Shown piece by piece: positions 14,522-50,675 of a stretch of 52,817 nucleotides of DNA; the stretch's first letter is position 1; every line of letters starts with the position of its first letter. The position numbers and the translations under genes are program-made. The DNA is from a virus: positions 1 to 52,817 of the IMG/VR virus record IMGVR_UViG_3300042375_000643; one strand, given 5' to 3'. The notes under the pieces are model-generated. The model was not told the origin of the DNA and did no database searches. It worked only from the letters and a program-made list of their open reading frames with translations.

Positions 14522-14525
14522 TTAA

Positions 14526-15290
14526 ATGGCTACATACAGCAAATCAAAAAACACTAAACCAACTCCTACTCCGGAAACTACAGGTAAACCAATAAGTAAA
14601 AAAGATTTAATTGGTCAAATCATCAAGAGAAAAACTAAAGAAAAGTTTTTAACTATAAATCAAAAAAAGTATTACGATACTTTAATTGATAGTGAAATTA
14701 CAGTTTGTTCGGGACCAGCGGGTGTTGGTAAAAGTTACATAACAATGAAAGCAGCAATTGATTTACTTTCAGACCCAAAAACACCCTACGAGAAAATAAT
14801 TATTGTTAGACCGGCCGTTGAAGCCGAAGAAAAATTGGGTTCTCTACCCGGTAATGTTGAAGAAAAGTTAGACCCGTACATTTTCCCCTCTTATTATTTA
14901 TTAAATAAAATTATTGGAAAAGAGTCTCGTGAAAAACTTAAAGAGATTGAAGTTATTGAAGTATTTGCGTTAGCATTTATGAGAGGTATGAATATTGATA
15001 ATTCAATCTTAATATTTGAAGAGGGGCAGAACGCTTCCCCAAGTCAAATGAAACTTCTTTTAACAAGAATTGGTTTTAACAGTAAGTTCTTTATTTCAGG
15101 AGATGTGGAACAATCAGATAAGTATAAAAACAAAACATTAAGTGGATTGTGGGACGCGATTGAAAAGTTTAGGGATGATGACTACGTTTCAACATTCGAA
15201 TTCAAAGATAAAAACGATATTGTTAGAAACCCATTAATTAGTAAGATATTACGTAAATACGATAACGAACCGGATGAGAATAGCAATTGA
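14526..15290 (+). CDS. phoH: PhoH-like ATPase
   Basis: 254 aa. The P-loop GPAGVGKS is at 63-70 and Walker B ILIFEEGQN at 161-169, with the PhoH-typical IIIVRPAVEAEEKLGSLPG between them. ASPSQMKLLLTRIG and KFFISGDVEQSD follow the PhoH family pattern (sensor region). PhoH-like genes are common in T4-like and marine phages; the role there is unsettled (RNA metabolism or phosphate stress have been proposed). Residues 1-35 are a polar, disordered extension. The 3' end overlaps the next gene by 17 nt. Confidence 0.9.
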   Translation: MATYSKSKNTKPTPTPETTGKPISKKDLIGQIIKRKTKEKFLTINQKKYYDTLIDSEITVCSGPAGVGKSYITMKAAIDLLSDPKTPYEKIIIVRPAVEAEEKLGSLPGNVEEKLDPYIFPSYYLLNKIIGKESREKLKEIEVIEVFALAFMRGMNIDNSILIFEEGQNASPSQMKLLLTRIGFNSKFFISGDVEQSDKYKNKTLSGLWDAIEKFRDDDYVSTFEFKDKNDIVRNPLISKILRKYDNEPDENSN

Positions 15291-15870
15291 GATTAATGGT
15301 GTTTTAAGAAACACCTTAGATAAAATTCAACAGACCTATCAAAAATATATGATAGATAAAACTGAGGGTATTGAAGAAGAAGAAGATATTGTTCGTGAAA
15401 TTAAATTACCTATAGATAGTTTAGAATTAAGAAATCATTTTACGTTTATCGATGATGAAGAACTATATTCTTTTTTATACGAAGATTTCCCAATGGAAAT
15501 CTTTGGTCATTCACAATCATCTGAATATCAAACATTCAACGATTTAAATGATATATACGTTAATTTAAGAGATAATCACGATTTATTAATAGTGTCAGAT
15601 GAAATGGGAAGGTCTAAACCGGCATCATTATTCTTCTTATCAAAATTTGGTTGTCAAGTAGAAAAAGTAAAATTCTATAGTAATTTGACAATAAATTCAA
15701 TGTGGGATGAGATTGATGTTTTACTTACATCAAACCCTGCACTATTATTAGAACATCCGGATGATAAAATATTAATTAAATATCAAACGGAATACAATAA
15801 ACATATCGAAACAAAACATTCTATAACTAACCTTAAAGAATTTGAATTCGAATTAATAAAAATACTATAA
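15274..15870 (+). CDS. HAD-like protein with degenerate catalytic motif
   Basis: 198 aa. The N-terminus IAIEINGVLRNT matches HAD motif I (usually DxDGV/T) in hydrophobic pattern, but both Asp positions are altered (Glu and Asn). LLIVSDEMGRSKPASLFFLSKFG resembles motif II plus the following helix, and DVLLTSNPALL sits where motif IV (DD) would be, again without the acidic pair. It may therefore be a non-catalytic HAD relative, possibly regulatory. The assignment is by eye. It overlaps phoH by 17 nt, suggesting coupled translation. Confidence 0.5.
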   Translation: MRIAIEINGVLRNTLDKIQQTYQKYMIDKTEGIEEEEDIVREIKLPIDSLELRNHFTFIDDEELYSFLYEDFPMEIFGHSQSSEYQTFNDLNDIYVNLRDNHDLLIVSDEMGRSKPASLFFLSKFGCQVEKVKFYSNLTINSMWDEIDVLLTSNPALLLEHPDDKILIKYQTEYNKHIETKHSITNLKEFEFELIKIL

Positions 15871-16145
15871 TGTTAAAAGTATTAGGAGAACACTACTATT
15901 TAGATTTAGATAAAATCGATGATTACGTCCAAATAAAAGAAGTTACACCATCAACAGGTATTACGGACACAACGCATATTAGCATTATAAAATATGAAAC
16001 CGTTAAATTAATGATGGAAATTATTATGGATGAGCCTGAAGAAATTGATGAAACATTAGGGGCTAAAGGAACAAATAACTTATCAATACCGTTTAAAATA
16101 GCGTTTAACACGTTACTATATAAAAAATTACTAAACAAATTATAA
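15870..16145 (+). CDS. Small unrecognised protein
   Basis: 91 aa, overlapping the previous stop by 1 nt. It begins with beta-like segments (LKVLGEHYYLDLDKIDDYV, then THISIIKYETVKLMMEII) and has a helical C-terminus (FKIAFNTLLYKKLLNKL). No motif identifies a family. It sits inside the phoH-glycosyltransferase run and is surely co-transcribed. Confidence 0.65.
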   Translation: MLKVLGEHYYLDLDKIDDYVQIKEVTPSTGITDTTHISIIKYETVKLMMEIIMDEPEEIDETLGAKGTNNLSIPFKIAFNTLLYKKLLNKL

Positions 16146-16146
16146 T

Positions 16147-17208
16147 ATGAATCAAGAACAACTATCAAAATTAGAATTGTCTATTGAGAATATGAAAAAT
16201 AAGAAAGCCAGAATTTATCTTATTGCTCAAGACACAAAAGGTAACGCCAAAGCATCTATTGCTTATATCTATAGATTAGGTATGGCATTATTAAAAGGAG
16301 GGTATAACCCGATAATCCTACACGAAAGTTCTGACTATACAGGTGTTTCTGAATGGTTAGGTGAAGAATATATGACACTTCCTCATAGAGTTATTGAAGG
16401 TCAAAATTTAGAAGTATCTCCTGAAGATTTATTAATTATTCCGGAACTTTTTGGGTATGTAATGAGTCAAGTATCTAAATTACCTTGCGGTAAAATTGTG
16501 TTATGTCAAGCTTACGACCATATTTTTGAAACGTTACAACCTGGAGAAAGTTGGACTCAATTAGGATTTTACAAATGTATTACAACATCTGATTATCAAA
16601 AAGAATTTATTGAGGGTATTATGAGAGGAGTCTCTTATGATGTTTTAAAACCATATTTTTCAGATAAATTTAAACCAAGTAATTTACCGGCTAAACCTAT
16701 TATTGCAGTTCACACTAGAGAACATAGAGACACAATTAACTTAATTAAAAGTTTCTATGTTAAATTTCCACAATATCGTTGGATAACTTTTAGAGATTTA
16801 AGAACATTATCTGAAGACGAGTTTGCTAAAGGTATTCAAGAGTGTTGTTTATCTGTTTGGATTGATGAAACAAGTGCTTATGGAACATTCCCGTTAGAAT
16901 CGATTAAATCAAATGTTCCTGTATTAGGTTTGGTTCCTAATATGGTACCTGATTGGATGAACGAAGATAATGGTCTATGGATAAATAACAAAGTTCAAAT
17001 TGTTGATTTTGTTGCCGATTATTTACAAAATTGGTTAGAAGATAATGTTAGTGAAACTTTACTTGATGGTATGAAAAAAACATCAGAAGAACTTTTAACT
17101 AAAGAAATGTTTGATGAACAAGCATTATCAATTTTTGATAAAGTTATGAATACAAGATTAGAATCGTTCACAGAACAATTAAATAAACTAGAAACAATTG
17201 AAGAATAA
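16147..17208 (+). CDS. GT-B-like glycosyltransferase
   Basis: 353 aa. The N-terminal half has a Rossmann-like series (ARIYLIAQDTKGNAKASIAYIYRLGMA, LLIIPELFG, GKIVLCQAYDH). The C-terminal half contains PIIAVHTREHRDTINLIKSF, then CLSVWIDETSAYGTFPLESIKSNVPVLGLVP, which is the donor-binding E-x7-E-type region of GT4 enzymes (TFPLESIKSNVPV). The N-terminal helix (~1-20) is extra. Likely part of the same glycan pathway; substrate unknown. Confidence 0.65.
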   Translation: MNQEQLSKLELSIENMKNKKARIYLIAQDTKGNAKASIAYIYRLGMALLKGGYNPIILHESSDYTGVSEWLGEEYMTLPHRVIEGQNLEVSPEDLLIIPELFGYVMSQVSKLPCGKIVLCQAYDHIFETLQPGESWTQLGFYKCITTSDYQKEFIEGIMRGVSYDVLKPYFSDKFKPSNLPAKPIIAVHTREHRDTINLIKSFYVKFPQYRWITFRDLRTLSEDEFAKGIQECCLSVWIDETSAYGTFPLESIKSNVPVLGLVPNMVPDWMNEDNGLWINNKVQIVDFVADYLQNWLEDNVSETLLDGMKKTSEELLTKEMFDEQALSIFDKVMNTRLESFTEQLNKLETIEE

Positions 17209-17209
17209 T

Positions 17210-18016
17210 ATGGAAAACTATTTTGACGTATCAGTAATATTACCAATTAAATCCGGGAGGGCCTTTGACTTCTCTGAGTATTTTACAAAATGTATTGAGT
17301 CATTAAAAACTCAAAAATTAAAAATTAATGAATTAATCATTGTTCACACAGATGAAGATGTTATTATTGAATTTTTAAATAATTTCGACTTTGGTGACTT
17401 AACAGTTATTAAACTTGCTTGGACTGAAGAACCTAATTACACCTTACAAATTAATTTTGGTGTTAAAAATTCAAATTCTAAATGGGTTTCATTATTTGAA
17501 TTTGATGACGAGTATTCAACAATATGGTTTAACAATGTTGAGAAATATAGCAACGCTTATCCAGATGTTGACGCATTTTTACCAATTGTCGTCGATACAG
17601 ACCAAATGGGTAAATTTGTCGGATTTACTAATGAAGCAACATTCGCAGCTAACTTCTCATCTGAAATGGGAATTTTATCTAATGAAACTTTACAAGATTA
17701 TCAAAATTTCCAAACATCAGGAATGGTTATTAAAAAATCCGCATTAGTTGATAATGGGTTATTTAAATCATCATTCAAGTTAACATACGGATATGAATTA
17801 TTTTTAAGATTAACTAATAATTCAGTTAAAATAATGTCAATCCCTAAGATTGGTTATAAACATACTAACTTAAGAGATGGTTCAATTTTTTGGAACTATA
17901 AAAATGGTGAAAATGCTTTAACTGCCGATGAGGTTAAATTTTGGATTGATTCGGCTAAAAAAGAATATTTCTTTACAAATGATAGAGCCATAAAGTACGA
18001 ACCACAAGAAGTTTAA
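17210..18016 (+). CDS. GT2-like glycosyltransferase
   Basis: 268 aa from the ATG at 17210, two nt after the preceding stop; an upstream in-frame TTG at 17198 is unlikely. The start YFDVSVILPIKSGRAFDFSEY is the classic family-2 first strand, and INELIIVHTDED follows. WVSLFEFDDEYS carries the DDE acidic motif in the DxD place, with SGMVIKKSALVDNGLF as acceptor-side region. Sixth glycosyltransferase-like gene of the block. Its TAA overlaps the sigma gene ATG. Confidence 0.7.
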   Translation: MENYFDVSVILPIKSGRAFDFSEYFTKCIESLKTQKLKINELIIVHTDEDVIIEFLNNFDFGDLTVIKLAWTEEPNYTLQINFGVKNSNSKWVSLFEFDDEYSTIWFNNVEKYSNAYPDVDAFLPIVVDTDQMGKFVGFTNEATFAANFSSEMGILSNETLQDYQNFQTSGMVIKKSALVDNGLFKSSFKLTYGYELFLRLTNNSVKIMSIPKIGYKHTNLRDGSIFWNYKNGENALTADEVKFWIDSAKKEYFFTNDRAIKYEPQEV

Positions 18017-31004: not shown

Positions 31005-32891
31005 TTATCTCAATTCTCTTAAATCGAATGTTCTAACACCATCAACAGTAATTCTTCCGTAAAAACGGTTGTTTACCATCTTTTTTGCGTATCTCGTCAT
31101 TATACCTTTGATAGGTGTAAAGTTGAACGGATTGTACATTGTAGGTGTTAATTGTAATGGTACATACGGTGCGTAGATGTATCCTGTATCAAGTAACGAT
31201 GTTCCTTTGTGTCCAATTAACACTTGGTTAGCTGGGAAGTAAGGGTCACGGTATACTTGGTAACGTCCTGCTAATGTTCCAACTCTTTCAATACCCATAT
31301 TATATTGGTCTTGTTCAGGTGAAGCATTAGATACGTGGAAGTATTCTAAGTCATCCATAATCGCTGAAACCTCAGAAGATACTACAATCCAGTTAGCTCC
31401 ACCTCTTAAAGTAGATTTGTGGATTTGTGCTGACAATTGGTTAATTGCAGTAATCAAAGTTTGGTTCCAATCTTTTTGTGTATAGTTTGTTGTTGCAGAT
31501 ATTCTTCTCCAACCATTGTAATCCCAACGTAAGTTCCACGCTGCACCTTTACGTAAATCTCTTAAGATTTCACGGTCAATTTCAGCCGCAACTTGTTCAG
31601 ATAATAAAGCTGTTAATTCAGCTTCAGCATCGATGTTGTGGAAAGCCGCAACGTCTTGAGCTAACTCAGGAGACCATTGTGCTCTTAATTTTCTTTCTGT
31701 AACAGAAACAGTAACTGAATCTAATTCGAAAGAAACCTCACCGATTTTATCTTCAAATTCCATATCAGCGTAACGTCTGTAAACAGCTTTGAAATCACCT
31801 GAAGCTAAAACTCCAAGAGTTGTTCCTGTATATCCGTCTAATGTTTCACCACAAGAAGGACAAGTAGGACAAGATAAGTCAACTTCTAAGAAGATACGAC
31901 CTTCAGGAGAACATACGTCATTGTAAGTTCCATTACTACCTGTTCCAGGGAATGAAGTAGTACCTTGTTTGTTTAAGTTATTAACAATACCTTGACCATA
32001 TTGTTGAGTTACAACTCTAAACAATAATGAGTTTGGTGCCGCAACAGTACCAACAACATCACAAGGAGAATCTCCACTGAATGCAGTTGCCTGAGCTGAT
32101 GTATAAATTCTTAAATCAGATAAGAAAGTTTCAGTATCAACTTCATTTCCATCAGGTCCAATTAATTTACCTGTACCTGCAGTTGTGAAACCTGATAACG
32201 CGATAATAATTTTTCTAACGTTTTTACCGTTAAATTGGTTTGCTAATGCACTTGCGTCAGCAACAACTAATTCTCCGTTAGACCAAACCATAACAACCGC
32301 AGTTTTAGTAACTGCTGACCATTGACCTTTAGAATAATCAAACAATCCTGGAGGGTCTAATTGACCTTCTGAACCTTCATAGAATAAATCATAAAGATTT
32401 TTCTTGAAAGCGGTTGTTCCATTGTAACCGTTATCTGTACCTGCTTGACCTTGAGCCGCTGCAACAGATAAACCACCTACAGCACCTTGTGGTCCAAAGT
32501 GATTACCATAACCATCGTAATCATTATCAGCCGAAGGAACTTGTCCTGTTTGGTAACCTTGAATTTTAGGTACGAAGAAGAACAATTTACCGATTGGTAA
32601 GTTCATAGCTTGTACTGATACGATTTCATTCGCTAATAATTTTGAGAATACTCTTCTTACGATAGGGAATACAACAGTTTCGAATGAACCTGAAGACCCG
32701 TCAGAAGTAGCTTCGTTAATCAAGAAAGACGCTTGGTTCTCATATAATTGAGCTACGTTTTCTCTTAAGTGACCTTTAAGGCCTTCTAGGAATCCTAATT
32801 TATCCCATTTGTTGATTGTGTCTTCTTTAATAACTTTAAGGTGTTTTAACCCGATGTTACCAACTAGACCTGATTCTAATAATGCTCCCAT
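31005..32891 (-). CDS. Major capsid protein, T4 gp23-like
   Basis: 628 aa, longer than T4 gp23 (521 aa). The N-terminus aligns with the gp23 plan: an acidic/helical prosegment ending ENQASFLINE, then ATSDG. Glu60-Ala61 fits the prohead protease site at the same place as T4 gp23 (after Glu65). The mature region opens with VVFPIVRRVFSKLLANEIVSVQAMN, very like the gp23 VRRAIPNLIAFDICGVQPMN segment. Later VERKLRAQWSPELAQDVAAFHN-type and GRYQVYRDPYF sequences are also capsid-typical. A Gly/Thr-rich insertion with a C-x2-C-x2-C motif lies at ~335-355. It forms the head shell. A hairpin terminator follows. Confidence 0.92.
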   Translation of the reverse strand: MGALLESGLVGNIGLKHLKVIKEDTINKWDKLGFLEGLKGHLRENVAQLYENQASFLINEATSDGSSGSFETVVFPIVRRVFSKLLANEIVSVQAMNLPIGKLFFFVPKIQGYQTGQVPSADNDYDGYGNHFGPQGAVGGLSVAAAQGQAGTDNGYNGTTAFKKNLYDLFYEGSEGQLDPPGLFDYSKGQWSAVTKTAVVMVWSNGELVVADASALANQFNGKNVRKIIIALSGFTTAGTGKLIGPDGNEVDTETFLSDLRIYTSAQATAFSGDSPCDVVGTVAAPNSLLFRVVTQQYGQGIVNNLNKQGTTSFPGTGSNGTYNDVCSPEGRIFLEVDLSCPTCPSCGETLDGYTGTTLGVLASGDFKAVYRRYADMEFEDKIGEVSFELDSVTVSVTERKLRAQWSPELAQDVAAFHNIDAEAELTALLSEQVAAEIDREILRDLRKGAAWNLRWDYNGWRRISATTNYTQKDWNQTLITAINQLSAQIHKSTLRGGANWIVVSSEVSAIMDDLEYFHVSNASPEQDQYNMGIERVGTLAGRYQVYRDPYFPANQVLIGHKGTSLLDTGYIYAPYVPLQLTPTMYNPFNFTPIKGIMTRYAKKMVNNRFYGRITVDGVRTFDLRELR

Positions 32892-34837: not shown

Positions 34838-35563
34838 TTAGTATCCCAAATAATCGTTTAATTTTTTCATTAAGTCAAGCGATTTATTTCCGGAATCTCC
34901 AACGTGTCTTTCAACACTCATTTTTTTCTCTTCTTCTAAGTTCTCATCATATAGATGTTTGTCGTCTTTATTTAAGAATAGATACGCTCCCGGAGTTGAA
35001 GGTGAAGATACTAAGTCGAAACAGATTAATTCAAAATCATCCTGTACTTCATTTTGTTCCCCAATTTTTTTAAGGGACCCTACACCTCTTGAGGATATCC
35101 CCAATGTAACACCTTGTCTAAGGTAGTTAGCGGCTAAGTCACCTTTGGTTGATACGATACCTCTTTCGTGGTAACCTGGTGAAGTAAGAAGTTTTATCTT
35201 ACCCATTAGTACATTACCTTCCCACCATACTTCGGTGATTGCGTGAGACACTCTATCTAAATCGATTAGAGATGATTCCGGGTGATTTAACTCGGATAGG
35301 GCGGTACCCTTTTTAATCATTTTTTTATAGTTCTCGGCCTCTCTTTTTAATATACGTTCAGGGTATGTTCTACCATTTCTATTTGGGGTATTATATTTTT
35401 GTAATACAGCATAAAATTCAAATGGTTTAGAGTGGTCTAACATTTCGTTAGATTCTCTAATTAAGCTTTCATTACGATTGTCATTTGGATTAATATATCC
35501 CGCATCGTACTCAACTAATATACCTTTTCCTGATTCGCTTGGTTGTAATATTCTTAATTTCAT
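34838..35563 (-). CDS. Prohead protease, T4 gp21-like (S77)
   Basis: 241 aa. The gp21 signature is clear: YNTPNRNGRTYPERIL, ALSELNHPESS with catalytic His94, LGISSRGVGS with the catalytic Ser at 157 or 158, and FELICFDLVSSPSTPGAY with Asp183. It cleaves scaffold and capsid prosegments after L/I-x-E during head maturation and is cleaved itself. The C-terminal ~45 residues are charged and probably removed. A TATTTATAAATA motif precedes it. Confidence 0.92.
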   Translation of the reverse strand: MKLRILQPSESGKGILVEYDAGYINPNDNRNESLIRESNEMLDHSKPFEFYAVLQKYNTPNRNGRTYPERILKREAENYKKMIKKGTALSELNHPESSLIDLDRVSHAITEVWWEGNVLMGKIKLLTSPGYHERGIVSTKGDLAANYLRQGVTLGISSRGVGSLKKIGEQNEVQDDFELICFDLVSSPSTPGAYLFLNKDDKHLYDENLEEEKKMSVERHVGDSGNKSLDLMKKLNDYLGY

Positions 35564-37085: not shown

Positions 37086-38978
37086 CTAGTCTTTTAGAAG
37101 TTTACTTAATTGGTCTTCAATATCTCCTAAAGAATTTTTTCCTTTAGATAAATCAATATAAGAATCGTCTTCAGTTAAGGAACCTTGTTCCACTAATATT
37201 TTTAAATTATCTCTTTTAAATGATTCCGGTGTTAGTTCAGCTTCCGGTGGTGCTGCCGCCTCAGGGGCTCCTGCTTCAGGGGCTCCTCCTTCAGGGGCTC
37301 CACCCGGTTCAGGTGCTCCTAAATCTTCCATTCCTCCGCCTATGTCTCCGCCACCGCCGAATCCTCCTCCACCTCCTGGTGGGGGTGGTGATGATGGTGC
37401 TGCTCCACCTGCTGTTGCTCCGGAAACTTTATTTCCGTATAATTTATCAATAGTATCAAATAAACCTGTATGTGTAATCATTGTTGCTGTGTTTGTTAAC
37501 TCAGCGCCGACTGCCATCTCAATTCTTTGTTGTTGTAAATCAAGTTTGATTTCCTCATCAGAGAATCCTAATATATGTTTCTTAGCCCACGATACTGATA
37601 CCGGTGCAATACCTGCGATTGCCGCTACGGCTTGTTGGTACAATGCGATTTTTTCTTTCCAAAGGTCAACTTTTAATAAGTCAGCTTGTGAAGATGGGTT
37701 AGTTAATGATAATGAAAAGTTTGATAATTCATCCTCAAACCCTAATAGAAATAAATGTATAATTGCAATTTTATTTAATTCTGCAACCATAGATTTTTGA
37801 ATCTTATTGATTGTTCTTGCAAAACGAATATCCATTAAAGATAAATCTTTTCCTCCACCAACAGCGTCTTCAAAACCTAAGAATGCTTTTGGTACTCTAA
37901 GTGCTGTTAATAATTTCTTTTGGATATATTCGATGTCGGCTATTTCAGATAAGTTTGTTGCTCCAGGTAATGTCTCTATTGGAGATGCTTGTGCGGCATC
38001 ACGAACAGGAATAAAGTAATCTTGGTCAACAGCCATTTGGTTGAATCTCATATCTACGTTTCCGGTTTTACCATCAACAACTTGTTCTCTTTTAAATTTG
38101 TTTGCAACACGTTGTACGTAAGCTTCAACATCTTTGTCATCCATATTTCCAACAAACACTTTAAACACACGTCTTTCAGGTGCTCTTGCTGTTCTATAAA
38201 TTAACATCGCATCTTCAGATAATAATAATTGTTTCCAAATACGTCTTGCCTTTTCTAACATAGAAGTACCGTAAGGAAGTTTTCTATCATCACCTAATAA
38301 TCTAAAGTGAGCCATCTCCCAAGAGTTGAACTCCATATTTTTTGCTTTCCAATGGAATCTTAATCCTTTGTTTTCTGCCGGTTCTTCAACATTTGCTGAT
38401 TTTGCGGCCATACCTCTTTCCAAACGTTCTATTTCAATGTTTGGTAATTGCATACAACCAACAATTCCTTTATCAGAATCTAATTTTAAATACACAAAGT
38501 TATCACCATATTTACAAGCATTTCTTGTCCACATTGGTAAGTTGGTGTCAACGTCTAACACGTTATTAAATAAATCGGCTAGTATAGATTTTATTCTTTT
38601 TGATTCTGAATAAATTTGTAATATATAACCATTTTCATCAACGGTTGTAGATTCTTCTGCGTATATGTCTAACGCTGCTGATATCTCAGGCGTATACTCC
38701 ATTGACTCATAATCATAGAATGATGCCAAACGAGTTGGTTCATAATACACGGCTTGGGTATAAAGATTACTTTCAATCTTTGTCCATTGATTTGCTAAAT
38801 AGAAAGTTTGTTGAGCTTGTAATTTCTCTCTTTCATATTCATCTTTAGAGGTAGTTTTTAATAACTCCTTCTTATCTAATTTGTATGTTGGGTAGTCTTG
38901 ATTTAATAACGAGTTTGGCCCGAATGCTTGTGAAAGCCTCTGCCAAACCGTTAAATCGTTATTTTTATTATTTTCCAT
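37086..38978 (-). CDS. Portal protein, T4 gp20-like
   Basis: 630 aa. Typical gp20 segments include YDYESMEYTPEISAALDIYAEEST, NLPMWTRNACKYGDNFVYL, NSWEMAHFRLLGDDRKLPYGTSMLE, LLSEDAMLIYRTARAPERRVFKVFVGN and KDLSLMDIRFARTINKIQKSM. It forms the dodecameric ring at the head vertex through which the terminase packages DNA. The C-terminal ~130 residues contain a Gly/Pro/Ala-rich low-complexity stretch (~525-585), unusual for gp20. A TATTTATATA motif lies 28 nt upstream. Confidence 0.93.
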   Translation of the reverse strand: MENNKNNDLTVWQRLSQAFGPNSLLNQDYPTYKLDKKELLKTTSKDEYEREKLQAQQTFYLANQWTKIESNLYTQAVYYEPTRLASFYDYESMEYTPEISAALDIYAEESTTVDENGYILQIYSESKRIKSILADLFNNVLDVDTNLPMWTRNACKYGDNFVYLKLDSDKGIVGCMQLPNIEIERLERGMAAKSANVEEPAENKGLRFHWKAKNMEFNSWEMAHFRLLGDDRKLPYGTSMLEKARRIWKQLLLSEDAMLIYRTARAPERRVFKVFVGNMDDKDVEAYVQRVANKFKREQVVDGKTGNVDMRFNQMAVDQDYFIPVRDAAQASPIETLPGATNLSEIADIEYIQKKLLTALRVPKAFLGFEDAVGGGKDLSLMDIRFARTINKIQKSMVAELNKIAIIHLFLLGFEDELSNFSLSLTNPSSQADLLKVDLWKEKIALYQQAVAAIAGIAPVSVSWAKKHILGFSDEEIKLDLQQQRIEMAVGAELTNTATMITHTGLFDTIDKLYGNKVSGATAGGAAPSSPPPPGGGGGFGGGGDIGGGMEDLGAPEPGGAPEGGAPEAGAPEAAAPPEAELTPESFKRDNLKILVEQGSLTEDDSYIDLSKGKNSLGDIEDQLSKLLKD

Positions 38979-39067: not shown

Positions 39068-41890
39068 TTATGGTTCAAATGGTACAAACTCGTCTTTATT
39101 ATGTGTTAACACATTATTTGCAAAATATAGGTTACTATTATTAACATTAACATCATATACCGTTGTTGGTTCTATAATTGTAACTAATGATGTAATTTCA
39201 AATTCAGTATTATCAATATCTAATAATACATCACCAACATTTAATTCCGATGTTGTTCTGATATACCATATACCATTTTGTTTAACAACGTGGTTATGAG
39301 CATCGGTAGCAATTAATATACCATTATTAATATTAACAACTGAGTCAAATTCATATATTTTAACGTCAATTACTGTTGATGTTGAATCAACATAATTTAA
39401 GGTATCACTACTCCAAGAGTACCACTCATCTGCAGGTTGTGGCATTCCTGATACATCAATAGATTTAAGAACATCATTGACTTGAACATCTTGTATTAAT
39501 TTAGTTGACCCGTCTGATAATGTTATTACTGTGTCAGCAACAAGACAACCACATCCAAGACACAAAGATAATGTTGTACCGTCCCAATATCTTCTGGAAA
39601 ATCCATTACTATAAAACCCTGTAGTTGCTGGTGTTAGATAACAATTTGTACCATCAGAACCTTTCAAATATGTTGCACTACATAAACTAGGGTCATCCAC
39701 ACAAACATCAACATAGGCTGGTGTATTACAAGCTTGGCTAAGAGTTGTACCATATCCCAATCCTATTATATAGAATGTTGGTGGTGGTATACAACAATTA
39801 TATGGTGATAGGGTCCATCCAGCGAGTTCATCACCACCAGTTATTATAATAGAGTTTACTTGAGCACAAATTTCAACAGGGTAATCTTCAAACACCGAGG
39901 TATTCACTGTAACACCTGAACAATTAACATATGAGAAATCTGTATTACCAAAATACAGAGTTGGAGGTGGTGGAGGTCCTGTATAAGTCACTGTATAACA
40001 TACACAAGTTATTACCGGTGATTCAGTCGGTGTTACTGTAGGGGTAGGAGTTAATGTTTTTGTTGGTGTAATTGTTGGTGTTAATGTAGGGGTAGGAGTT
40101 AATGTTTTTGTTGGCGTAATTGTTGGTGTTAATGTAGGTGTAAGCGTTAATGTTTTTGTTGGTGTAATTGTTGGGGTAGGAGTTAATGTAGGTGTTGCCG
40201 TTGCCGGAATTGATTTTGTTGGTGTAATTGTTGGTGTTAATGTAGGTGTTGCCGTTGCCGGAATTGATTTTGTTGGCGTAATTGTTGGTGTTAATGTAGG
40301 TGTTGCCGTTGCCGGAATTGATTTTGTTGGCGTAATTGTAGGCGTTAATGTTGGAGTCACTGTTGCCTGAATTGAACTTGTTGGCGTAATTGTTGGAGTT
40401 AATGTAGGTGTTGCCGTTGCCGGAATTGATTTTGTTGGCGTAATTGTAGGCGTTAATGTTGGAGTCACTGTTGCCTGAATTGAACTTGTTGGCGTAATTG
40501 TTGGAGTAATTGTTGGAGTTAAAGTATTTGTTGGCGTAATTGTTGGAGTTAACGTTGGTGTTGCTGTTGCTTGAATTGAACTTGTTGGAGTATTTGTTGG
40601 GGTACTTGTCGCTCCTAATGTTGGTGTTACTGTTATTGTTGGTGTTACGGTAGACGTATTAGTTGGTGTTAAAGTATTTGTTGGTGTTAATGTTGGAGTT
40701 AATGTTGGAGTTAAAGTTGGCGTTTCTGTAACTGTCTCTGTCGGAGTATTTGTTGGCGTTAACGTTGGTGTTAGAGTATTTGTAGGTGTGAAAGTTGGAG
40801 TTAATGTTGGAGTTGAAGTTGGCGTTTCTGTAACTGTCTCTGTCGGAGTATTTGTTGGCGTTAACGTTGGTGTTGGTGTTAGTGTCTCTGTTGGAGATGG
40901 AGATGGAGGTATACAAGGATAAGTGGTTGTACAATTAAGGCAACTAGTTTCTGTTGTAAAACTTATGATGTTATATTGAGCATCAAATAATGGTCCACTT
41001 ACTGCCGTAACACATCCATTAAATCCGTCAGTATCAATATAATACACATTACCTAATATAATTGGTGTTACAAAACCACCAACTTTATAGGTATTAAATG
41101 GGGTACAACAATCTTGGAAATATTCAATTGTTGGAGGTAACGGAGATGGTGTTACTGTTATTGTTGGTGTTACGGTAGACGTATTAGTTGGTGTCAAAGT
41201 ATTTGTAGGCGTTACGGTAGTCGTATTAGTTGGTGTTAAAGTATTTGTAGGTGTTACGGTAGCCGTATTAGTTAGTGTTACCGTATTTGTAGGTGTTACC
41301 GTATTTGTTGGGGTAATAGTTGGAGTAACTGTTTCTGTTGGAGTCAAGGTTGGTGTTACCGTATTTGTTGGTGTTGGAGTTAATGTAGGAATAAAAGGAA
41401 TAACAATTATTTCCCACGTACTTTCAACCGGAGTTCCCGATAATTGACTAAAAAATGGTACTCCTGTGTAGTTGATATAATCTTCATCTATTGTAATAAT
41501 AGTTTGTCCTGATAAATCGCCAGAATTAACAGTAACTCCTGTAAATATTGTAACCGGAGGACCACTATAAAAATTTAAAACATTTTCAAAAGTAACATTT
41601 ATTTCTTCACTATGCGGACGGTTTAATACTAATGTATAAAACACAATTATAGAACCAGGTGTGTACTCAACAAAAAGGGTTAAATGTAACGGTTCTAAAT
41701 TGGTTATTGTACAAGTAACCGCTGTTTCAGGAATGTATATATCATACGTCCCGTAAAAATAATCGGTAATATAGTCGTATGGTAATGTAACTAAACCTAT
41801 ATTAATTGTTCCACCCGTTGATGGGTAATAGGTTACGTCTCCGGTGTATCCGGAGTAATTGTCTGTCGATATTGTAAATACGTATTTCAT
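39068..41890 (-). CDS. PT-linker modular adhesin with C-terminal Hint (intein-like) domain
   Basis: 940 aa. Residues ~1-68 are the shared N-terminal module ([38 protein letters not shown]). Then come the ~105-residue sandwich domain also present at 1453-2442, PT linkers, a Cys-rich domain ([14 protein letters not shown] to CLNC) and ~300 residues of PT repeats with an 18-residue period. After a second Cys-rich region, residues 782-931 are a Hint domain: Cys782 in [14 protein letters not shown], block-B Thr862-x-x-His865 (TDAHNH), and terminal His930-Asn931 in ANNVLTHN. Lys932 follows instead of C/S/T, and the protein ends 9 residues later. Self-cleavage rather than splicing is expected, as in bacterial intein-like domains. 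Confidence 0.8.
40150..40630 (-). repeat. 54-nt tandem repeats encoding PT-rich 18-residue units
   Basis: About six units encoding variants of [18 protein letters not shown] or [18 protein letters not shown]. Copies are nearly identical at DNA level, so slippage or recombination can change the linker length. Confidence 0.75.
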
Positions 41891-41893
41891 AAG

Positions 41894-43966
41894 TTATGTA
41901 AATAATCCTCCGTCAAATATTGTCCAACCATATCCTCCACTACCGGTTGACCCTGTAAGGATTGCTTTTCCTGCAGAACCTGCTGACGTGTATTTTGCAG
42001 TACCAAAATGGATTGTTATATTTATTTGAGGGTTTTTAGTTGACCATCCATTATAAATATCATCTAAGTTTGAGGTTAATAATGTTGTATCAGTTTTGTT
42101 CGCCATAAAGAAAGAGAAATTGGTTACACCAGAAATATTCCAATTTCCAATATTTTGTTTAAAATACTGATTCTGACTAAACATATAAGTCATATTAATA
42201 ACCTTAGAAACATCCCAACCACTAATGTCTTGATTAAATTTTGAATTATTAAACATTTGAGACATAAACATAACCTTAGAAACATTCCACCCACTAATGT
42301 CTTGATTAAATTTTGAACTATTAAACATACTATTCATATTTGTCACCTTTGAAACGTTCCATCCACTAATGTCTTGATTAAATTCTGAATCAAAAAACAT
42401 ACTACCCATAGTGGTAACACCTGATACATTCCAAATCCCTATGGGTTGATTAAATATTGATGATGTAAACACTCCCGACATAGACGTAACTTTTGAAACA
42501 TCCCATCCACTAATGTCTTGATTAAATTTTGAATTATTAAACATAAAATTCATAGTATTCACATTTGAAACATCCCAACCACTAATGTCTTGATTAAATT
42601 TTGAATTAGAAAACATAGCGGACATATTAGTAACGTTAGAAACATCCCATCCACTAATGTCTTGGTTAAAATTTGAACTATTAAACATAGAGGACATATT
42701 AGTAACACCTGATACATTCCAAATTCCTATGGCTTGATTAAAAAATGGATTCATAAATAAACCTGACATATTAGTAACGTTAGAAACATCCCATCCGGTA
42801 ATGTTTTGGTTAAAAATTGAACCTTGAAACATATACGACATATTCGTTACATTTGATACATCCCACCCTGTAATATCTTGAGTGAAAACTGTATTATATT
42901 GGAACATTGTGGATATATTAGTAACACCTGACATATTCCAAACACCAATAGGTTGATTAAATGCTGTTGCCCCTGCAAACATACCGGACATATTTGTTAC
43001 GTTTGAAATATCCCACCCTGTTATATCTATATTAAATGATGCCCCCGCAAACATATAACTCATATTGGTAACACTTGAGGTATCCCACCCACTAATGTCT
43101 TGATTAAATGGGGTTGATTGAAACATATTACTCATATTGGTAACACCTGAAACATTCCAATTATTTAATGGTTGATTAAATTGGTAACACCCATTAAATA
43201 TATAACTCATATTAGTTATCATTGAAATATCCCAATCATTCAGTGGTTGAATAAAACTTCCACAATCTGAAAATAATGAACTTAAACTTGTTAAATTTGA
43301 AATGTTCCACTGTTCTATATTATTAACTGCGGTTAAAGAATAACATTCTTGGAATATCCCGTCAATAGACGTTAAGTTAGAAATATCTAAAACATCGTTA
43401 ACCGTAGATAAATTTAAATTAAAACAATATGCAAATTGATAACCTCCATCCGCTAATTTAAGTGAACCCCATTGTAAAACATTTAAAATTTTACCATAAT
43501 CACCATTATAATTGAAATTAAATCCTTCAATAACACCCGTTATTGTTATTACATAAGTCCCAATAACATTGTAGGTATGTGTAGTTTCAGGTTGGTCCCA
43601 CGTAGTTATTTTATCAGAACTACCATCACCCCAGTCAACAACAAAATTATAAGTACCTGATGAATCTAAATTTAAAAATATTTGGTTAGATAAACTAACA
43701 CCATCATTGTCTGTTTTCCAAGTGGAAATAAATGGACTTGTAAAACTACCAATTAAATCACAAACGGGTGGTTGATTATCTATAATACAAATTTTATCAA
43801 AATATGGTATGTAAACTTCATATATCCCATAAAAATAATCTGTGTTATAATCATATGGTAACATTTGTGTTCCTAAATTTATTGTACCACCTGTATATGG
43901 GTAATAGGTAATATCTGCGGTAAATCCGTCAAAATTATCTGTCGATATTCTAAATTTTTTAGTCAT
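41894..43966 (-). CDS. Modular adhesin: anchor module, PKD domain, 17 BspA-like (DUF285) repeats
   Basis: 690 aa from the ATG at 43964-43966 (start MTKKFRISTDNFDG); an earlier in-frame ATG overlaps the upstream gene. Residues ~1-65 are the shared anchor module. A PKD-like domain follows (VVDWGDGSSDKITT, THTYNVIGTYVITITG). Then 17 tandem 24-residue repeats of the type [20 protein letters not shown] (DUF285/BspA-like surface repeats), and a C-terminal cap ([31 protein letters not shown]) also present in the neighbouring paralogue. This repeat class is found on bacterial surface proteins that bind host or matrix components. A receptor-binding or decoration role is inferred. No PT linker. Confidence 0.82.
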   Translation of the reverse strand: MTKKFRISTDNFDGFTADITYYPYTGGTINLGTQMLPYDYNTDYFYGIYEVYIPYFDKICIIDNQPPVCDLIGSFTSPFISTWKTDNDGVSLSNQIFLNLDSSGTYNFVVDWGDGSSDKITTWDQPETTHTYNVIGTYVITITGVIEGFNFNYNGDYGKILNVLQWGSLKLADGGYQFAYCFNLNLSTVNDVLDISNLTSIDGIFQECYSLTAVNNIEQWNISNLTSLSSLFSDCGSFIQPLNDWDISMITNMSYIFNGCYQFNQPLNNWNVSGVTNMSNMFQSTPFNQDISGWDTSSVTNMSYMFAGASFNIDITGWDISNVTNMSGMFAGATAFNQPIGVWNMSGVTNISTMFQYNTVFTQDITGWDVSNVTNMSYMFQGSIFNQNITGWDVSNVTNMSGLFMNPFFNQAIGIWNVSGVTNMSSMFNSSNFNQDISGWDVSNVTNMSAMFSNSKFNQDISGWDVSNVNTMNFMFNNSKFNQDISGWDVSKVTSMSGVFTSSIFNQPIGIWNVSGVTTMGSMFFDSEFNQDISGWNVSKVTNMNSMFNSSKFNQDISGWNVSKVMFMSQMFNNSKFNQDISGWDVSKVINMTYMFSQNQYFKQNIGNWNISGVTNFSFFMANKTDTTLLTSNLDDIYNGWSTKNPQINITIHFGTAKYTSAGSAGKAILTGSTGSGGYGWTIFDGGLFT
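42120..43340 (-). repeat. 72-nt tandem repeat array (17 DUF285-type units)
   Basis: Each unit encodes 24-25 residues with conserved W, V-S, V-T-x-M, MF and FNQ. Adjacent units are highly similar in DNA (recurrent CACTAATGTCTTGATTAAAT on the + strand), so unequal recombination is likely. Confidence 0.85.
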
Positions 43967-43968
43967 AT

Positions 43969-46845
43969 TTAAATTCCTCCATCTGTTATAAACCAACCAT
44001 ATTCACCACTACCGGTTCCTTCTAAGATTGATTTTCCAGCAGAACCTGCTGATGTGTATTTGGCCGAACCAAAGGTTATTGTTCTACCTATTTGAGGATT
44101 TTTGGTCGACCATCCATTGTAAATATTGTCTAAATTTAATGTTGAGAATGTTAACGATGTTTTACTCGCCATAAAACCCGTAAAATCATTTACGTTAGAT
44201 ATATCCCAATTTCCGATTGGTTGATTAAAAGATGAATTATTATTAAACATATTTGCCATTTTAACAACACTTGAAACATCCCAATTTCCAATTGGTTGAT
44301 TAAATGGGCTTGTTTGAAACATACTAGTCATATTACCAACATTTGACACATTCCATCCGGATAATGGTTGGTTAAATGGTGTGTCATTAAACATTAAATT
44401 CATACTAACAACACTTGAAACATCCCAATTTCCAATTGGTTGATTAAATGGTGACGACCAAAACATAGCGGTCATAGATTGAACATTACTTGTACTCCAT
44501 CCTGATAACGGTTGGTCAAATGGTGTACTATAAAACATATAACCCATATTGGTAACGTTTGATACATCCCAATTTCCAATTGGTTGGTTAAATGGACTAT
44601 TGTAAAACATTTGAGACATATTAGTTACATTAGACACGTTCCATCCTGATAATGGTTGGTCAAATGACGTAGCATTAACAAACATACTTTCCATATTGGT
44701 AACGCCTGAAACATTCCAAATACCTATAGGTTGGTTAAATGGTGTGTTAACAAACATTTGACTCATACCAACAACTTTTGACACATCCCAACCAGTAATA
44801 TCTTGATTAAATTGAATACAACCATAAAACATACCCGCCATACTTTGAACTCTTGATACGTTCCACCCTGATAATGGTTGGTCAAATACTAAATTGTTAT
44901 AAAACATATAACCCATATTAGTAACACCCGATACATTCCAATTTCCAATAGGTTGGTTAAATGGAGTTCCCGCAAACATATTTTGCATAACAAACACTTT
45001 ACTTACATTCCATCCGGATAATGGTTGGTCAAATGACGTAGCGTTATTAAACATATAGTACATATTACTAACTTTTGAAACATCCCAATTTTCAATAGGT
45101 CTATTGAATGCGGTCCCCGCAAACATTTGAGACATATTAGTTACATTAGACACATTCCATCCCGATAACGGTTGGTTAAATAACGTAGAGTTAGTAAACA
45201 TATTACCCATATTGGTAACGCCTGAAACATTCCAAATACCTATAGGTTGGTTAAATGGTGTATCCCAAAACATACCGAACATACTAGTCACATTTGAAAC
45301 GTCCCACCCACTAATGTCTTGATTAAATGGTGTACTATAAAATGTATAATTCATAACATTCACATTTGAAACATCCCATCCACTAATGTCCTGATTAAAT
45401 TGAGTATTATAAAACGTATTACTAATATCTGTAATATTCGATATATCCCAACTATTGATGTTATTAATTGTAGTTATTGAATTACAATTATGAAATAAAG
45501 ATATTAAAGTTTGTTTTTCAGATAAATTTAAAACATCCGTCACATTTGTTAATATTAAATTAACACAATTGTAAAAATTATTATAGTCACTACCTAAATT
45601 AATCGAACCCCATTGTAGTATTTCTCTAATTTTACTATTATTAATATAATTAAATTGTGATGTAGATGCGAAAGTAAATCGTTTAATAGTTCCTGTAATT
45701 GTTACTGTATAGTCACCTGATGAGGTATATGTATGTGTTCTATTTGCGTATGAATTTACTGATGTATTACCGTCACCCCAATCAATAATACCTTCATAAG
45801 TACCATCAATTAAATATGGTAATGTAATACTTTCAGATGGTGTTGTTGTTCTCCAAACTGAAATAAATGGAGGTAAAGGTGTTGGTGTTGGTGATGGTGT
45901 ATACGTAGGTGTTGGGGTATTTGTTGGTGTTAATGTAGGTGAAGGAAGGTCAACCCCTGTTAAATCACAAGGACAAACATTTGTAAGTAACTCATAACTA
46001 CCTGATATAGTTAATTTATTTATACCATATGAACATTTACCACATACATAAACTTTATTTGTTGGAATAGTTTCTATTTGTGGGATATTCACGGTAACCG
46101 GAGCACCTCCACTACAAAGTTGGTATTGGAAAGTTGAAATACCTCCGTTACCTAAACCACCGTCTAATTCATAATAACCACAATCAGTACAATTAGTGAA
46201 CACATTTGATGTTGTTGGATATCCACCACATTCTTGAGTTATTCTAAAATAAATTAAAATATCGTTAGCAAGTGGACCAATATCGTATAAGGCTGGGTTT
46301 GTATAACAATCATTAACTTCAATTGAAGTCCAATTATCGTTATCTAATGAATATGATAAGAATAATTGTTCACAATTTGCCGGTAAATTAGTAAAGTGGT
46401 AAGCCCAAGTTGTTCCTGAGATTAATTCAACATTATCTAACGTAATACTACATTCCGCAGGAGTAACCGTTGGTGTTGGAGTATATGTTGGTGTTGGAGT
46501 ATACGTTGGTGTTACCGTATTTGTTGGAGTATATGTTGGTGTGTTTGTTGGTGTTTCGGTATTTGTTGGAGTTAAAGTGTTTGTTGGTGTATTTGTTGGT
46601 GTATTTGTTGGCGTATTTGTTGGTGTTAATGTTGGTGTTGGGGACAAACAAGGAACAACTAATTCACAAGTTTTATCGTAATTAGGTATATAAATAACAT
46701 ATGTACCGTAGTAATCTTCTGTTTCGTAATTATATGGTAAGGTAACTTGCCCAATATTAATACTTCCCCCCGAACAAGGGTAAAAGGTAATATCGGATAA
46801 TTGTCCGTCGTAATTTGTTGTTAATATTTCTATAATTGTTCCCAT
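43969..46845 (-). CDS. Modular adhesin: anchor, PT linker, Cys-rich domain, PKD, 18 BspA-like repeats
   Basis: 958 aa. Residues ~1-68 are the anchor module ([45 protein letters not shown]). A PT/NT linker is followed by a Cys-rich domain of ~175 residues (start [14 protein letters not shown]) that is near-identical to one in 46852-48885. A second PT linker leads to a PKD-like domain ([28 protein letters not shown]), 18 DUF285-type 24-residue repeats, and the same C-terminal cap as the neighbour ([23 protein letters not shown]). It is a paralogue of 41894-43966 with an added stalk; two nt separate the genes. Probable surface-binding fibre or decoration. Confidence 0.82.
44170..45470 (-). repeat. 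72-nt tandem repeat array (18 DUF285-type units)
   Basis: Two alternating unit types are visible: [11 protein letters not shown] and [11 protein letters not shown]. In the neighbouring array [11 protein letters not shown] dominates. The pattern suggests block duplication of two-unit segments. Confidence 0.85.
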
Positions 46846-46851
46846 ATTTTA

Positions 46852-48885
46852 TTAATTGTAATATACGTTAAAGTTGTCAAAAAGAGAATTGACTAAAGTT
46901 GGTGTTGCTCCAAAATTATAGAAATATCCGAACGAATCTAATGTTACATTGGTATATGTTGAATTTGTTGCTGAACTAGGGGTACTATATCCTGTTGTTA
47001 ATCTAGAATCTATCCAATCAGAATTACCATCATTTCTAAAAGATAAAGTCCAATTATTTGTTGTTGAATTGTAAGACACTTTTAAGCTTAAATAATCCGT
47101 ATCCGAAAATCCTGGTGACAATGGTGTTGATAAAATTGTTGTTATATTAGCGTTTGCTTGTAATCCTCCTGTGAAACTAACTAATCTCCACTGTCTAGTT
47201 CCTGAACCACCATAAACTAATGCGTATCCATTACCATTAGTCAATACGTCACTACCATTTGATGCTAAAATAACTGCTTGACCAAAAAGACCTGAATCAA
47301 ACCCATCTAAAATTGCGTTGTAATTATTCCTTACATTCACAGACCAATTAACAATTGTTGGGTTTAAATTTAATTGAGAATAGAAATTAGGATTACCGAC
47401 TAAAGTATACGTTGACATAGTATAAAGTCTACCTGTTGTGAGAGTAGTGTCCGACCTCATTCTTAGGAAAATTCCCGCACCAATACCAATATTACCAAGA
47501 TTTGTTATTGTAGATGTGTATGCAATTGATGGAGTACCACCCGGACTAACCGCGGCTCTAGTAAAATTATCGACAAATACATTATTACCCGGTGCATATG
47601 GATTTGTTGGTGTTGGCGTCATTGTCGGTGTTGGTGTTAATGTATTAGTTGGTGTTAATGTTGGTGTTGACGTTAATGTATTAGTTGGTGTATTTGTTGG
47701 AGTTTCAGTATTAGTTGGTGTATTTGTTGGAGTTTCAGTATTTGTTGGTGTTAATGTTGGTGTTAATGTATTAGTTGGTGTAGGTGTTGGAGTATTAGTT
47801 GGTGTATTTGTTGGAGTCTCAGTTGGTGTATTTGTTGGGGTCTCAGTTGGGGTATTTGTTAATGTTGGTGTTAATGTAACTGTAGGTGTTGGGGTAAGAG
47901 TTGGAGTTGGTGTTGGTGTAGGACTTGGGCAAATATTTGTTATTAAAGTATAAGAACCTTTACCTATTAGTTTTACCACACCATAAGAACATTTGGCACA
48001 AACATTTACTACAGGTGGTGGGATAAATGGAAGATAACTATTATCAACATTAACTGTGACTGGACTACTTCCATCACAAGGGATATATTCAAAAGTAGAG
48101 TACGACCCAAATACAGGGAAATAAGTTCCACTTAATTCATAATAACCACAATTAGTACAACTAGTGAAAACATTTGATGTTGTTGGATATCCACCACATT
48201 CTTGAGTTATTCTAAAATAAATTAAAACATCACCAAGTGGACCGATATCATATAAGGCTGGATTTGTATAACAATCATTAACTTCAATTGAAGTCCAATT
48301 ATCATTATCTAACGAATATGATAAGAATAATTGTTCACAATTTGCTGGTAAATTATTAAAGTAATAAGCCCAAGTTGTTCCTGAGATTAATACAACATTA
48401 TCTAATGAAATGCTACATTCCGCAGGTGTAACCGTTGGAGTTGGAGTATATGTTGGTGTTACCGTATTTGTTGGAGTATTTGTTGGTGTTTGTGTTGGTG
48501 TTACCGTATTTGTTGGAGTATTTGTTGGTGTTACCGTATTTGTAGGTGTTGGGGTATTTGTAATAGAACCAATAACATATGTGAAATCACAGTTTAATGG
48601 TGTTGTACTTGGCGTAATAGTTGGTGTAGGAGTATTTGACGGTGTTGGTGTAGGTGTCTGTGTAGTAATATCTACACCAGTAAAGTCACAAGGTAATAAT
48701 GGAGTTGACGATGGTGTAATAGACGGTGTAGGTAACGGAGGTACTCCCCCATTAATATCAGATTGATAAGGTAAATTTTTTGTAAATGAAGATTGAATTT
48801 TTTTGGTCAATATTCCTTGGCCCGGAACATTAAGTAATGACCCGTCAAATATCCTACCTGACTTTTTTCTTTCCGTTAAACCCAT
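46852..48885 (-). CDS. PT-linker modular virion protein with C-terminal lectin-like sandwich
   Basis: 677 aa. The N-terminus ([29 protein letters not shown]) differs from the shared anchor module. Residues ~50-130 are PT linkers with two Cys-Asp-Phe-Thr motifs ([18 protein letters not shown]). A ~165-residue Cys-rich domain (start [14 protein letters not shown]) is near-identical to that of 43969-46845. A long PT/NT linker follows. Residues ~450-677 are a beta-rich domain ([54 protein letters not shown]) consistent with a concanavalin-like jelly roll that often binds glycans. First gene of the leftward adhesin run, with a TATTTATCA motif 12 nt upstream. Confidence 0.75.
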
Positions 48886-48905: not shown

Positions 48906-50675
48906 TTACCTAACTCCAAATAACCAGCCATATTTTGCATAATCGTCTTTACTGACTTGTTGACCATTAAATTGGTTAACCCTATTTTGATACATAGGTA
49001 TCACAGGGTCAAAATTAATACTTTCTTTAATAGCCTCATTATTATTAACAGACCAAGAATCTAACATTGCTTTAGTATGTTCTGTAACCTTTGTTAATTT
49101 ACTAAATGAAGATTCCGCAACGTAAGTGGCCATCGCGATTGACATAATTAAATCGTCGTGATGTCCTTTTTGGTGGTCAGGTCGACCATTGATATATACA
49201 AAGGTGTTCATTTCATTATATAAACGAGAACTATAAATTCTGAATTTATGTCTCATCGCCTCTTCAAATGACGCAATAATTTGAACCCTTTTATTATTAA
49301 AATTTATTCCGGGAATTTTATCAGCCGCAGCTGGGTCGTATTTCCATTTATTAGATAAATCAACACCATCAACATATAAATCACGATAATTCATTTCTTG
49401 TAGTTTTCTTGATGTTGATACCCCCATTCCACCGGTAATATCAATTACAATGAAACAAGAATATATTGTCGCCCATTTATGGCAAATTTCTGCCATAGTG
49501 TCAGGTGGTAATTTACCGACAAATTCGGCAACTTGTTCCATTGTATCGAAGTCGACAATTTGAAATGAACTAAAATCTTCTGAATCTCCACGAGAAACGT
49601 CGACACCCATAATGTATTTATGTCCAACAACGGGTTCTTTCCAAATCCAAAGAGCATTACCCATCATTTTACTAACAGGTTCTTTCACTTGATTTTCACG
49701 AATATCTTGCATCATAAGAGAATCAAATACGTTATCTCCGGAACCTAAGAAGTTACATTCTAACTCCTGAGATACTTTACGTTTATCGTATTTTAATTTC
49801 TTAACCATCGCTTCAAACCAAGAAGAACAAGGTTTGTAACCGGCATCCATAAGAACTCTTAATTCTACATAGTTTCTATCTTTATAAGGTATTTTTGACC
49901 AATCAATAAATTCATCTGATTTATAATCTTCTTTATTTAAAAGATAATGAATGATATCGTTTGTTTTAACTAAAAATAAATCACTAGTGTATCTTGGGTC
50001 TCTATACCAAAACATCTCCGTAATTTTGAAGTCGTTCATATTACGTAATGCTTGGTCATATATTTCATAATAAATTTGGTCGTAACCATTGGGTGTTGAT
50101 ACCACAATTACTTTACCCCCCGTAGATAGGGACGCCATACAGGCAGACCAGAAATCACTATCGGCCTCGATAAAGGCCGCCTCATCAAATACAAGTATGG
50201 TTGGTGTAAATCCACGCAAGGCATCCTTAGATGTTGCAACGGCTTTAACCTCACATCCATTTGTTAATTTATAATGTTTTTGGGAATTTTTGGCTTTATC
50301 AAATTCAACACCGGTCCAAGACGGCCATTGACCAACGAACGCTTTTATTTTGTTCGCCATCTCCAATGATGTATCCAACTTGTTGGCAATAATCAATATT
50401 TTCTCGGGAGCGTCTTTTCTTGCAAATATAAGTTTACGTGACATCCAAGCCGCGGTAACTGTTGATACCCCGGCCTGTCTGTACTTTAATGCTATATTCT
50501 CATTGTATTCTTCGTAATCGTTGAGTAATGCTAATTGGTCAGGGAAAAGTTCCAATGGAACATATTTTTTAACCGTATTATCATATGTTTCTAAATACGT
50601 TTTAAGTGCGTATTCAACATCTCTATTACATTTTACGTATTCTATTAATACTTGTTCTCTTGTTAAATTCGACAT
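48906..50675 (-). CDS. Terminase large subunit, T4 gp17-like
   Basis: 589 aa. ATPase: variant Walker A RQAGVST (66-72) in IALKYRQAGVSTVTAAWMSR, Walker B ILVFDEAA (160-167), and VVSTPNGYDQIYYEIY as coupling motif. RNase H-like nuclease: Asp359 in IMGVDVSRGD, Asp412 in IVIDITGGMG, and Asp508 in GHHDDLIMS. It cuts concatemeric DNA and pumps it through the portal. Downstream of the 50697 gene with 21 nt between them. Confidence 0.95.
   Translation of the reverse strand: MSNLTREQVLIEYVKCNRDVEYALKTYLETYDNTVKKYVPLELFPDQLALLNDYEEYNENIALKYRQAGVSTVTAAWMSRKLIFARKDAPEKILIIANKLDTSLEMANKIKAFVGQWPSWTGVEFDKAKNSQKHYKLTNGCEVKAVATSKDALRGFTPTILVFDEAAFIEADSDFWSACMASLSTGGKVIVVSTPNGYDQIYYEIYDQALRNMNDFKITEMFWYRDPRYTSDLFLVKTNDIIHYLLNKEDYKSDEFIDWSKIPYKDRNYVELRVLMDAGYKPCSSWFEAMVKKLKYDKRKVSQELECNFLGSGDNVFDSLMMQDIRENQVKEPVSKMMGNALWIWKEPVVGHKYIMGVDVSRGDSEDFSSFQIVDFDTMEQVAEFVGKLPPDTMAEICHKWATIYSCFIVIDITGGMGVSTSRKLQEMNYRDLYVDGVDLSNKWKYDPAAADKIPGINFNNKRVQIIASFEEAMRHKFRIYSSRLYNEMNTFVYINGRPDHQKGHHDDLIMSIAMATYVAESSFSKLTKVTEHTKAMLDSWSVNNNEAIKESINFDPVIPMYQNRVNQFNGQQVSKDDYAKYGWLFGVR

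Follow-up and report, generated by a model that had tools for sequence, protein, structure and literature searches.

Several otherwise dissimilar proteins encoded among the packaging and head genes of an uncultured phage begin with the same short domain, which raises the question of what this common opening is for. The proteins belong to a 52.8-kb fragment of an uncultured virus, IMG/VR record IMGVR_UViG_3300042375_000643 (all 52,817 nucleotides, referred to below as the window), whose packaging and head genes are T4-like. Three of them, named here by position as 39068, 41894, and 43969, are encoded on the minus strand and open with one module of about 62-65 residues. A preliminary description, made from the letters alone, had pointed out this shared start and a more distant version in the 1453 protein, and had proposed a plug-in system in which a common module presents differing payloads. 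About 100 homologues and natural swaps bear this arrangement out and, as far as can be read from sequences, strongly support a plug-in architecture with a constant N-terminal module and an exchangeable C-terminal payload. Taken as a whole, the best explanation is that an N-terminal docking module carries exchangeable heads on the virion, and this is considered probable.

Pairwise alignment with the module of 39068 gives 60% identity for 41894, 51% for 43969, and 29% for 1453. In a tblastn comparison of the 39068 module with the window, the copies of 41894 and 43969 were recovered with expect values (E) of 9.5e-24 and 1e-18, respectively. A profile made of type I modules only detects the 1453 module (E 1.3e-10), and the type II profile detects the 43969 module in return (E 9.6e-8). 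Given the tblastn matches and the two-way profile matches, the kinship is not due to chance, and both the three close copies and the distant one are confirmed. The 1453 module is a divergent type II form with an insert of about six residues. The four copies lie as follows.

41699-41890, minus strand: type I module, residues 1-64 of the 39068 protein (alignment, hidden Markov model (HMM), AlphaFold2 model)
43775-43969, minus strand: type I module of the 41894 protein, start ATG at 43969 (alignment, HMM, profile)
46660-46845, minus strand: type I module of the 43969 protein (alignment, HMM, profile)
2230-2442, minus strand: type II module of the 1453 protein (profile)

A TTG at 43996 was rejected as the start of the 41894 gene; with the ATG at 43969, the protein has 691 residues.

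A profile built from the four window copies was run over a first set of related contigs from IMG/VR, and a second scan followed. The number of module-bearing open reading frames (ORFs) rose from 181 in the first set to 306 after the second scan, representing about 97 distinct sequences. In each of the 306 ORFs the module is single-copy and stands directly behind the start codon. Two apparent exceptions to this placement were a chance match and an ORF in which the first start codon is situated too far upstream. Individual genomes of these large, uncultured tailed phages carry the module on up to six different proteins. No homologue was found in the 50,697 phage records of INPHARED, searched with three different members, in PLSDB, searched with one member, or in two related isolates, Immutovirus (NC_055915) and Mel-JY01 (PP395634). 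Scans of bacterial genomes, which were seeded with short conserved peptide patterns and may let distant relatives escape, returned a chance match only. This candidate (L104, from a Ramlibacter metagenome-assembled genome) was rejected, the match covering 17 aligned positions within an unrelated protein (E 0.003). Of the search that had been suggested for the complete genome and phage databases, the outcome is about 100 distinct homologues in IMG/VR and none in INPHARED. Nor did the sequence and profile scans, PLSDB, or bacterial genomes show the converse, a general fold with wide occurrence beyond phages. No Pfam or PHROG model fits the module, scattered weak matches occurring in single members only; no sequence family of the PDB covers it, and no description of it turned up in the literature.

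Behind the module, the proteins diverge. Among the N-terminal families of the collected loci, C-termini are similar in 3% of the pairs in the module family (106 distinct N-termini) and in about 100% of the pairs in most other families. The payloads recognised by Pfam include LamG-like, PA14/GLEYA, F5/8 type C, glycine-rich, carbonic-anhydrase-like, C1 peptidase, and Hint/intein domains. DUF285 follows the module in 9 of 61 proteins, and some proteins consist of the module and a Thr/Pro tract alone. In the window, the Hint, PKD-like, and sandwich payloads first described were found again. The label BspA did not stand, as the repeats in question are DUF285/PARCEL repeats (PF03382, E ~1e-151; TIGR02167, 184 bits vs. 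a cut-off of 30). The payload features of the window are the following.

39098-39547, minus strand: C-terminal Hint (intein-like) domain of 39068, Cys782 to His930-Asn931 (motifs, profile)
39959-41410, minus strand: stalk of 39068, made of Thr/Pro-rich tracts (residues ~161-258 and ~319-644) that flank a short domain containing Cys
41402-41686, minus strand: sandwich-like second domain of 39068, residues 69-163
1636-1920, minus strand: sandwich-like payload of 1453
41900-43732, minus strand: PKD-like domain, then DUF285/PARCEL repeats, without stalk, of 41894
43972-45867, minus strand: PKD-like domain and DUF285/PARCEL repeats of 43969
45970-46458, minus strand: internal domain of 43969, 73% identical to one in the module-less 46852 protein

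Comparison of related contigs reveals swaps at the DNA level. L038 and L039 share 92.5% identity from the upstream genes through the module and a linker of ~190 bp. Behind the linker, the payloads are unrelated and unequal in length, and then follows a portal gene with 91% identity. Between L038 and L154 the flanks are homologous, and between these flanks only the 217-bp module aligns. In L054, the 43969 module of the window (95% DNA identity) is joined to the Hint end of 39068 (90%), the intervening genes being missing. In the G006 group, the module of 39068 type forms a separate gene with a product of 69 residues, and directly behind it comes a Hint protein headed by a module of 43969 type. 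Payloads also move between two loci, since the sandwich-like domains of 39068 and 1453 are 82% identical over 95 residues and their modules only 29%.

The best clue to the role of the module comes from a neighbour of the 1453 gene.

2446-5367, minus strand: protein of 973 residues with LamG-like core and C1 peptidase, directly upstream of 1453; candidate docking partner

In L095, L096, and L136, this protein is split inside the LamG-like region, close to residue 597, and its separated second half, which comprises residues 599-973 with the peptidase, begins with the module. A half-protein that presumably has to return to its complex is here capped by the module, as would be expected of a docking element. 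Relatives of the LamG protein are clear in 17 of the 32 module-bearing records and weaker in 8 more (25 of 32, after exclusion of three further matches to the low-complexity stalk only), and are neighbours of module genes in most records, often directly upstream of one. The protein is absent from both module-free isolates, Immutovirus and Mel-JY01. It is hypothesised that the LamG/peptidase protein binds the module directly. The strict N-terminal position, the setting among structural genes, a promoter-like motif, and the split LamG/peptidase protein together make docking on the virion likely.

Alternatively, the module could be a homo-oligomerisation or folding-start domain that, for instance, trimerises the stalks, virion attachment being left to other parts or not occurring. 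The module is small, N-terminal, and predicted to fold independently, and its stand-alone copies could serve as mixing subunits. The several paralogues of one phage would, however, be expected to cross-oligomerise, and the module-capped half of the split LamG/peptidase protein fits docking better, so that this alternative is considered unlikely.

The swaps themselves allow another explanation, in which the module mainly serves as a patch of recombination homology in a mosaic cluster and owes its conservation to frequent exchange rather than to common docking. Islands of DNA identity confined to the module between heterologous payloads, the repetitiveness of the Thr/Pro stalks, and the exchange of payloads between loci agree with it. 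Nevertheless, dN/dS (the ratio of nonsynonymous to synonymous substitution rates) is mostly 0.2-0.5 in the module, which indicates purifying constraint, and its protein motifs are kept at 30-60% identity across divergent phages. Together with the strict N-terminal position, this points to selection at the protein level and renders a mere homology patch improbable.

The gene setting bears on the question whether the proteins are virion parts at all. The genes concerned are listed here.

48906-50675, minus strand: terminase large subunit, upstream boundary of the terminase-portal insert
46852-48885, minus strand: 46852 protein, first gene of the insert, with another N-terminal family, the same kind of stalk, and an internal domain in common with 43969; preceded by the TATTTATC motif
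37086-38978, minus strand: portal protein, downstream boundary of the insert
34838-35563: protease
31005-32891: major capsid protein

The module cluster is co-oriented with the terminase, portal, protease, and capsid genes and embedded among them. By capsid protein, the nearest isolates share about 40-43% identity; they are Microcystis phage Mel-JY01 and the Immutovirus phages of Flavobacterium. A contractile-sheath gene is present in 13 of 20 related records. The cluster (39068-48885) occupies the terminase-portal junction, where sister phages have about 40-70 bp. The junction measures 2.1 kb in G002, where it holds other proteins and no module. It reaches 2.9 kb with one module gene in G031, 9.9 kb with three in the window, and 11.3 kb with four in G006, which identifies it as an expandable insertion site. 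Of the 28 occurrences of the motif TATTTAT[AC] in the window, 12 lie within 70 nt upstream of a same-strand ORF start vs. 0.8 expected. It precedes the genes of the portal, the protease, 32923 (between the protease and capsid genes), 46852, and 2446, as well as ORF 2-1405. Its intergenic sites include 35586, 37084, 39014, 48905, and 5387 (minus strand). The motif is possibly the late promoter of this phage group. As it heads both, it suggests that the module cluster belongs to the expression class of the head genes.

The second module locus, in which modules of both types (I and II) occur, adjoins the LamG/peptidase gene. A conserved neighbour of 924 residues (ISQEEIKSFL...) was examined there as a baseplate protein, which was rejected; it is a family B DNA polymerase, and the locus is therefore not bounded solely by tail genes.

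Release at lysis, with the module proteins acting as decoys or surface-acting factors outside the virion, would accommodate the very long Thr/Pro proteins (up to 5472 residues), and the evidence for virion incorporation is indirect. The genes are, however, embedded among head and packaging genes and share the promoter-like motif, the second locus adjoins the gene of a LamG-type protein, and the anchor-payload logic agrees with characterised receptor-binding proteins. Release is therefore quite improbable.

AlphaFold2, run with 35 sequences, predicts a six-stranded beta domain for the module (predicted local distance difference test (pLDDT) 92, predicted template-modelling score 0.74). A fold search of the PDB returned generic Ig-like/CnaB-like beta-sandwich matches alone, and the best viral structure match is a protein of an uncultured Caudovirales phage (template-modelling score (TM) 0.76). 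Such a fold, often found in ligand-binding proteins, could make the module itself the ligand-binding head and the C-termini attached parts, which is very improbable for a domain that is constant and never tandem or internal while its C-termini are diverse and include known binding or catalytic domains.

Several points weigh against docking with exchangeable heads on the virion. The fold resembles generic Ig-like/CnaB structures only. Stand-alone modules of 67-91 residues, with no decayed payload behind the stop, bear no head. The same kinds of payload are also mounted on several other N-termini (e.g., L189), and 7 of the 32 module-bearing records show no LamG-type partner. The virion location of the module proteins is read from genes alone. 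With two loci and two divergent module types, a single virion site is not established.

If docking is nonetheless accepted, the following sequence of events can be proposed. Late in infection, several proteins would be made, each opening with the module. This small six-stranded beta domain would bind the virion, most likely at or beside the LamG/peptidase protein (2446-5367). Thr/Pro-rich stalks of differing length would hold the heads outward. These may be DUF285/PARCEL repeat surfaces, Hint domains, papain-like proteases, or carbohydrate-binding folds of PA14/GLEYA or F5/8 type. PA14/GLEYA, F5/8, LamG, C1 peptidase, and DUF285 domains are suggestive, and no more, of heads that bind or degrade receptors on the host surface. 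Heads would be exchanged by recombination in the stalk repeats and payloads that follow the module, and the socket would remain compatible.

A more far-reaching version is tentative and, on balance, doubtful. It would be a standardised multi-payload mounting, loaded from the expandable terminase-portal cassette, in which several virion proteins use one socket simultaneously and some modules are empty stand-alone plugs. Some heads would be catalytic, such as a Hint domain that could couple the stalk tip covalently to a nucleophile on the host surface, and would sit on Thr/Pro stalks of thousands of residues.

The Hint domain of 39068 is recognised by sequence. In a profile comparison, the C-terminal 150 residues match 6tmm over the entire length (E 1e-7), and the catalytic Cys, the block B His, and the terminal His-Asn are invariant in seven aligned Hint sequences. 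PF14890 matches 5 of 5 Hint sequences, the window protein scoring below the curated cut-off. An AlphaFold2 model of the domain, made with five sequences only, has a pLDDT of 32, too low for a Hint horseshoe to be recognised. The chain ends 1 or 9 residues past the His-Asn of the domain, in relatives exactly one residue past. As it stops so soon after the Asn, the domain, if active, would act mainly on the stalk side; speculatively, it could release itself or hand the stalk to a nucleophile.

Proteins of the 39068 type vary in length (940, 904, 892, 787, and 759 residues among the window, L004, L009, L010, and L011), with the same module type and Hint end. Most of the variation is apparently due to the Thr/Pro tract. 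Module-headed giants of 2737-5472 residues occur in G022 (L184:307-16725), G023, G024, G033, G039, G040, and G041. In G022, repeats of Thr, Pro, and Asn make up most of the 5472-residue protein (2471 Thr, 1095 Pro), which, if fully extended, could exceed the length of the virion. Glycosyltransferase genes are situated near Thr/Pro stalk genes (e.g., L089:18087-19331, L097:4492-5739, L189:8459-9706), among them one for a GlcNAc transferase of PF11397 type, as tested in L089, and the window has several glycosyltransferases at 8171-18016. The stalks may be O-glycosylated and mucin-like. An unusual payload for a fibre-like protein of a phage is seen in two module proteins, where a domain matches LCIB-type beta carbonic anhydrase (PF18599, E 1.7e-27).

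The same loci also hold other N-terminal families whose C-termini are mixed, namely ITSLTGHSPYDITICD, CSKYTLTNTGSS, the ISQLP type, YRPLRPAKP, and the family of the 46852 N-terminus (L084, L086, L093, L095, L096, L189, and 46852-48885 of the window). They may be parallel sockets. The 46852 N-terminus was tested as a diverged module copy and rejected.

Fibre proteins of uncultured large phages are otherwise hard to recognise, and the profile of about 65 residues offers a means of searching these phages for adhesins, proteases, and Hint domains that are candidates for display on the virion. With sites that range from essentially empty to five genes, the natural series of swaps behind a constant socket is a way to study how phage surface equipment changes. 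Should docking be proven, proteins of choice could be displayed on phage particles by means of the module.

Among known systems, the structures 6tmm and 6y75, whose entries are titled NAD(P)(+)--arginine ADP-ribosyltransferase, are presumably those of A-type bacterial intein-like (BIL) domains. A-type BIL domains have a conserved C-terminal His-Asn (PMC7765530). The Hint domain of 39068 resembles them in the full-length profile match, the N-terminal Cys, the block B His, and the C-terminal His-Asn; it differs in its place at the stalk end of a putative phage structural protein. PARCEL/DUF285 is a mobile repeat of bacterial and eukaryotic surface proteins (PMC2996958), also present in the Vibrio jumbo phage pir03 (PMC7765460). 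In 41894, 43969, and relatives, the repeats are likewise recognised by PF03382 and TIGR02167, but here they form a head on several different N-terminal sockets. The likeness of the module to CnaB-like/SpyCatcher and other Ig-like beta domains is a weak one of fold (4mls, probability 0.80, TM 0.47), with no match at E <= 0.001.

The closest parallel is found in the modular receptor-binding proteins of Klebsiella and T7-like phages, in which an N-terminal anchor carries an exchangeable depolymerase (PMC6872550, PMC8262889). Common to both are a constant N-terminal module, horizontally exchanged C-terminal heads, and synteny broken inside conserved structural genes. As in receptor-binding proteins, the N-terminal module is conserved and single-copy, and heads are exchanged with the anchor kept. 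The anchor function is experimentally supported there, whereas the module described here is known from genes alone and has no match in the phage collection, Pfam, or the PHROG models. A further difference is that a single module of ~65 residues recurs at two loci on as many as six proteins per genome; Thr/Pro stalks and stand-alone modules occur, and the payloads include Hint, DUF285, and protease domains. It would appear to be a variant of the known principle of conserved anchor and exchangeable C-terminus, whose distinguishing traits are the copy number, the stand-alone copies, the Thr/Pro stalks, and the Hint and protease payloads.

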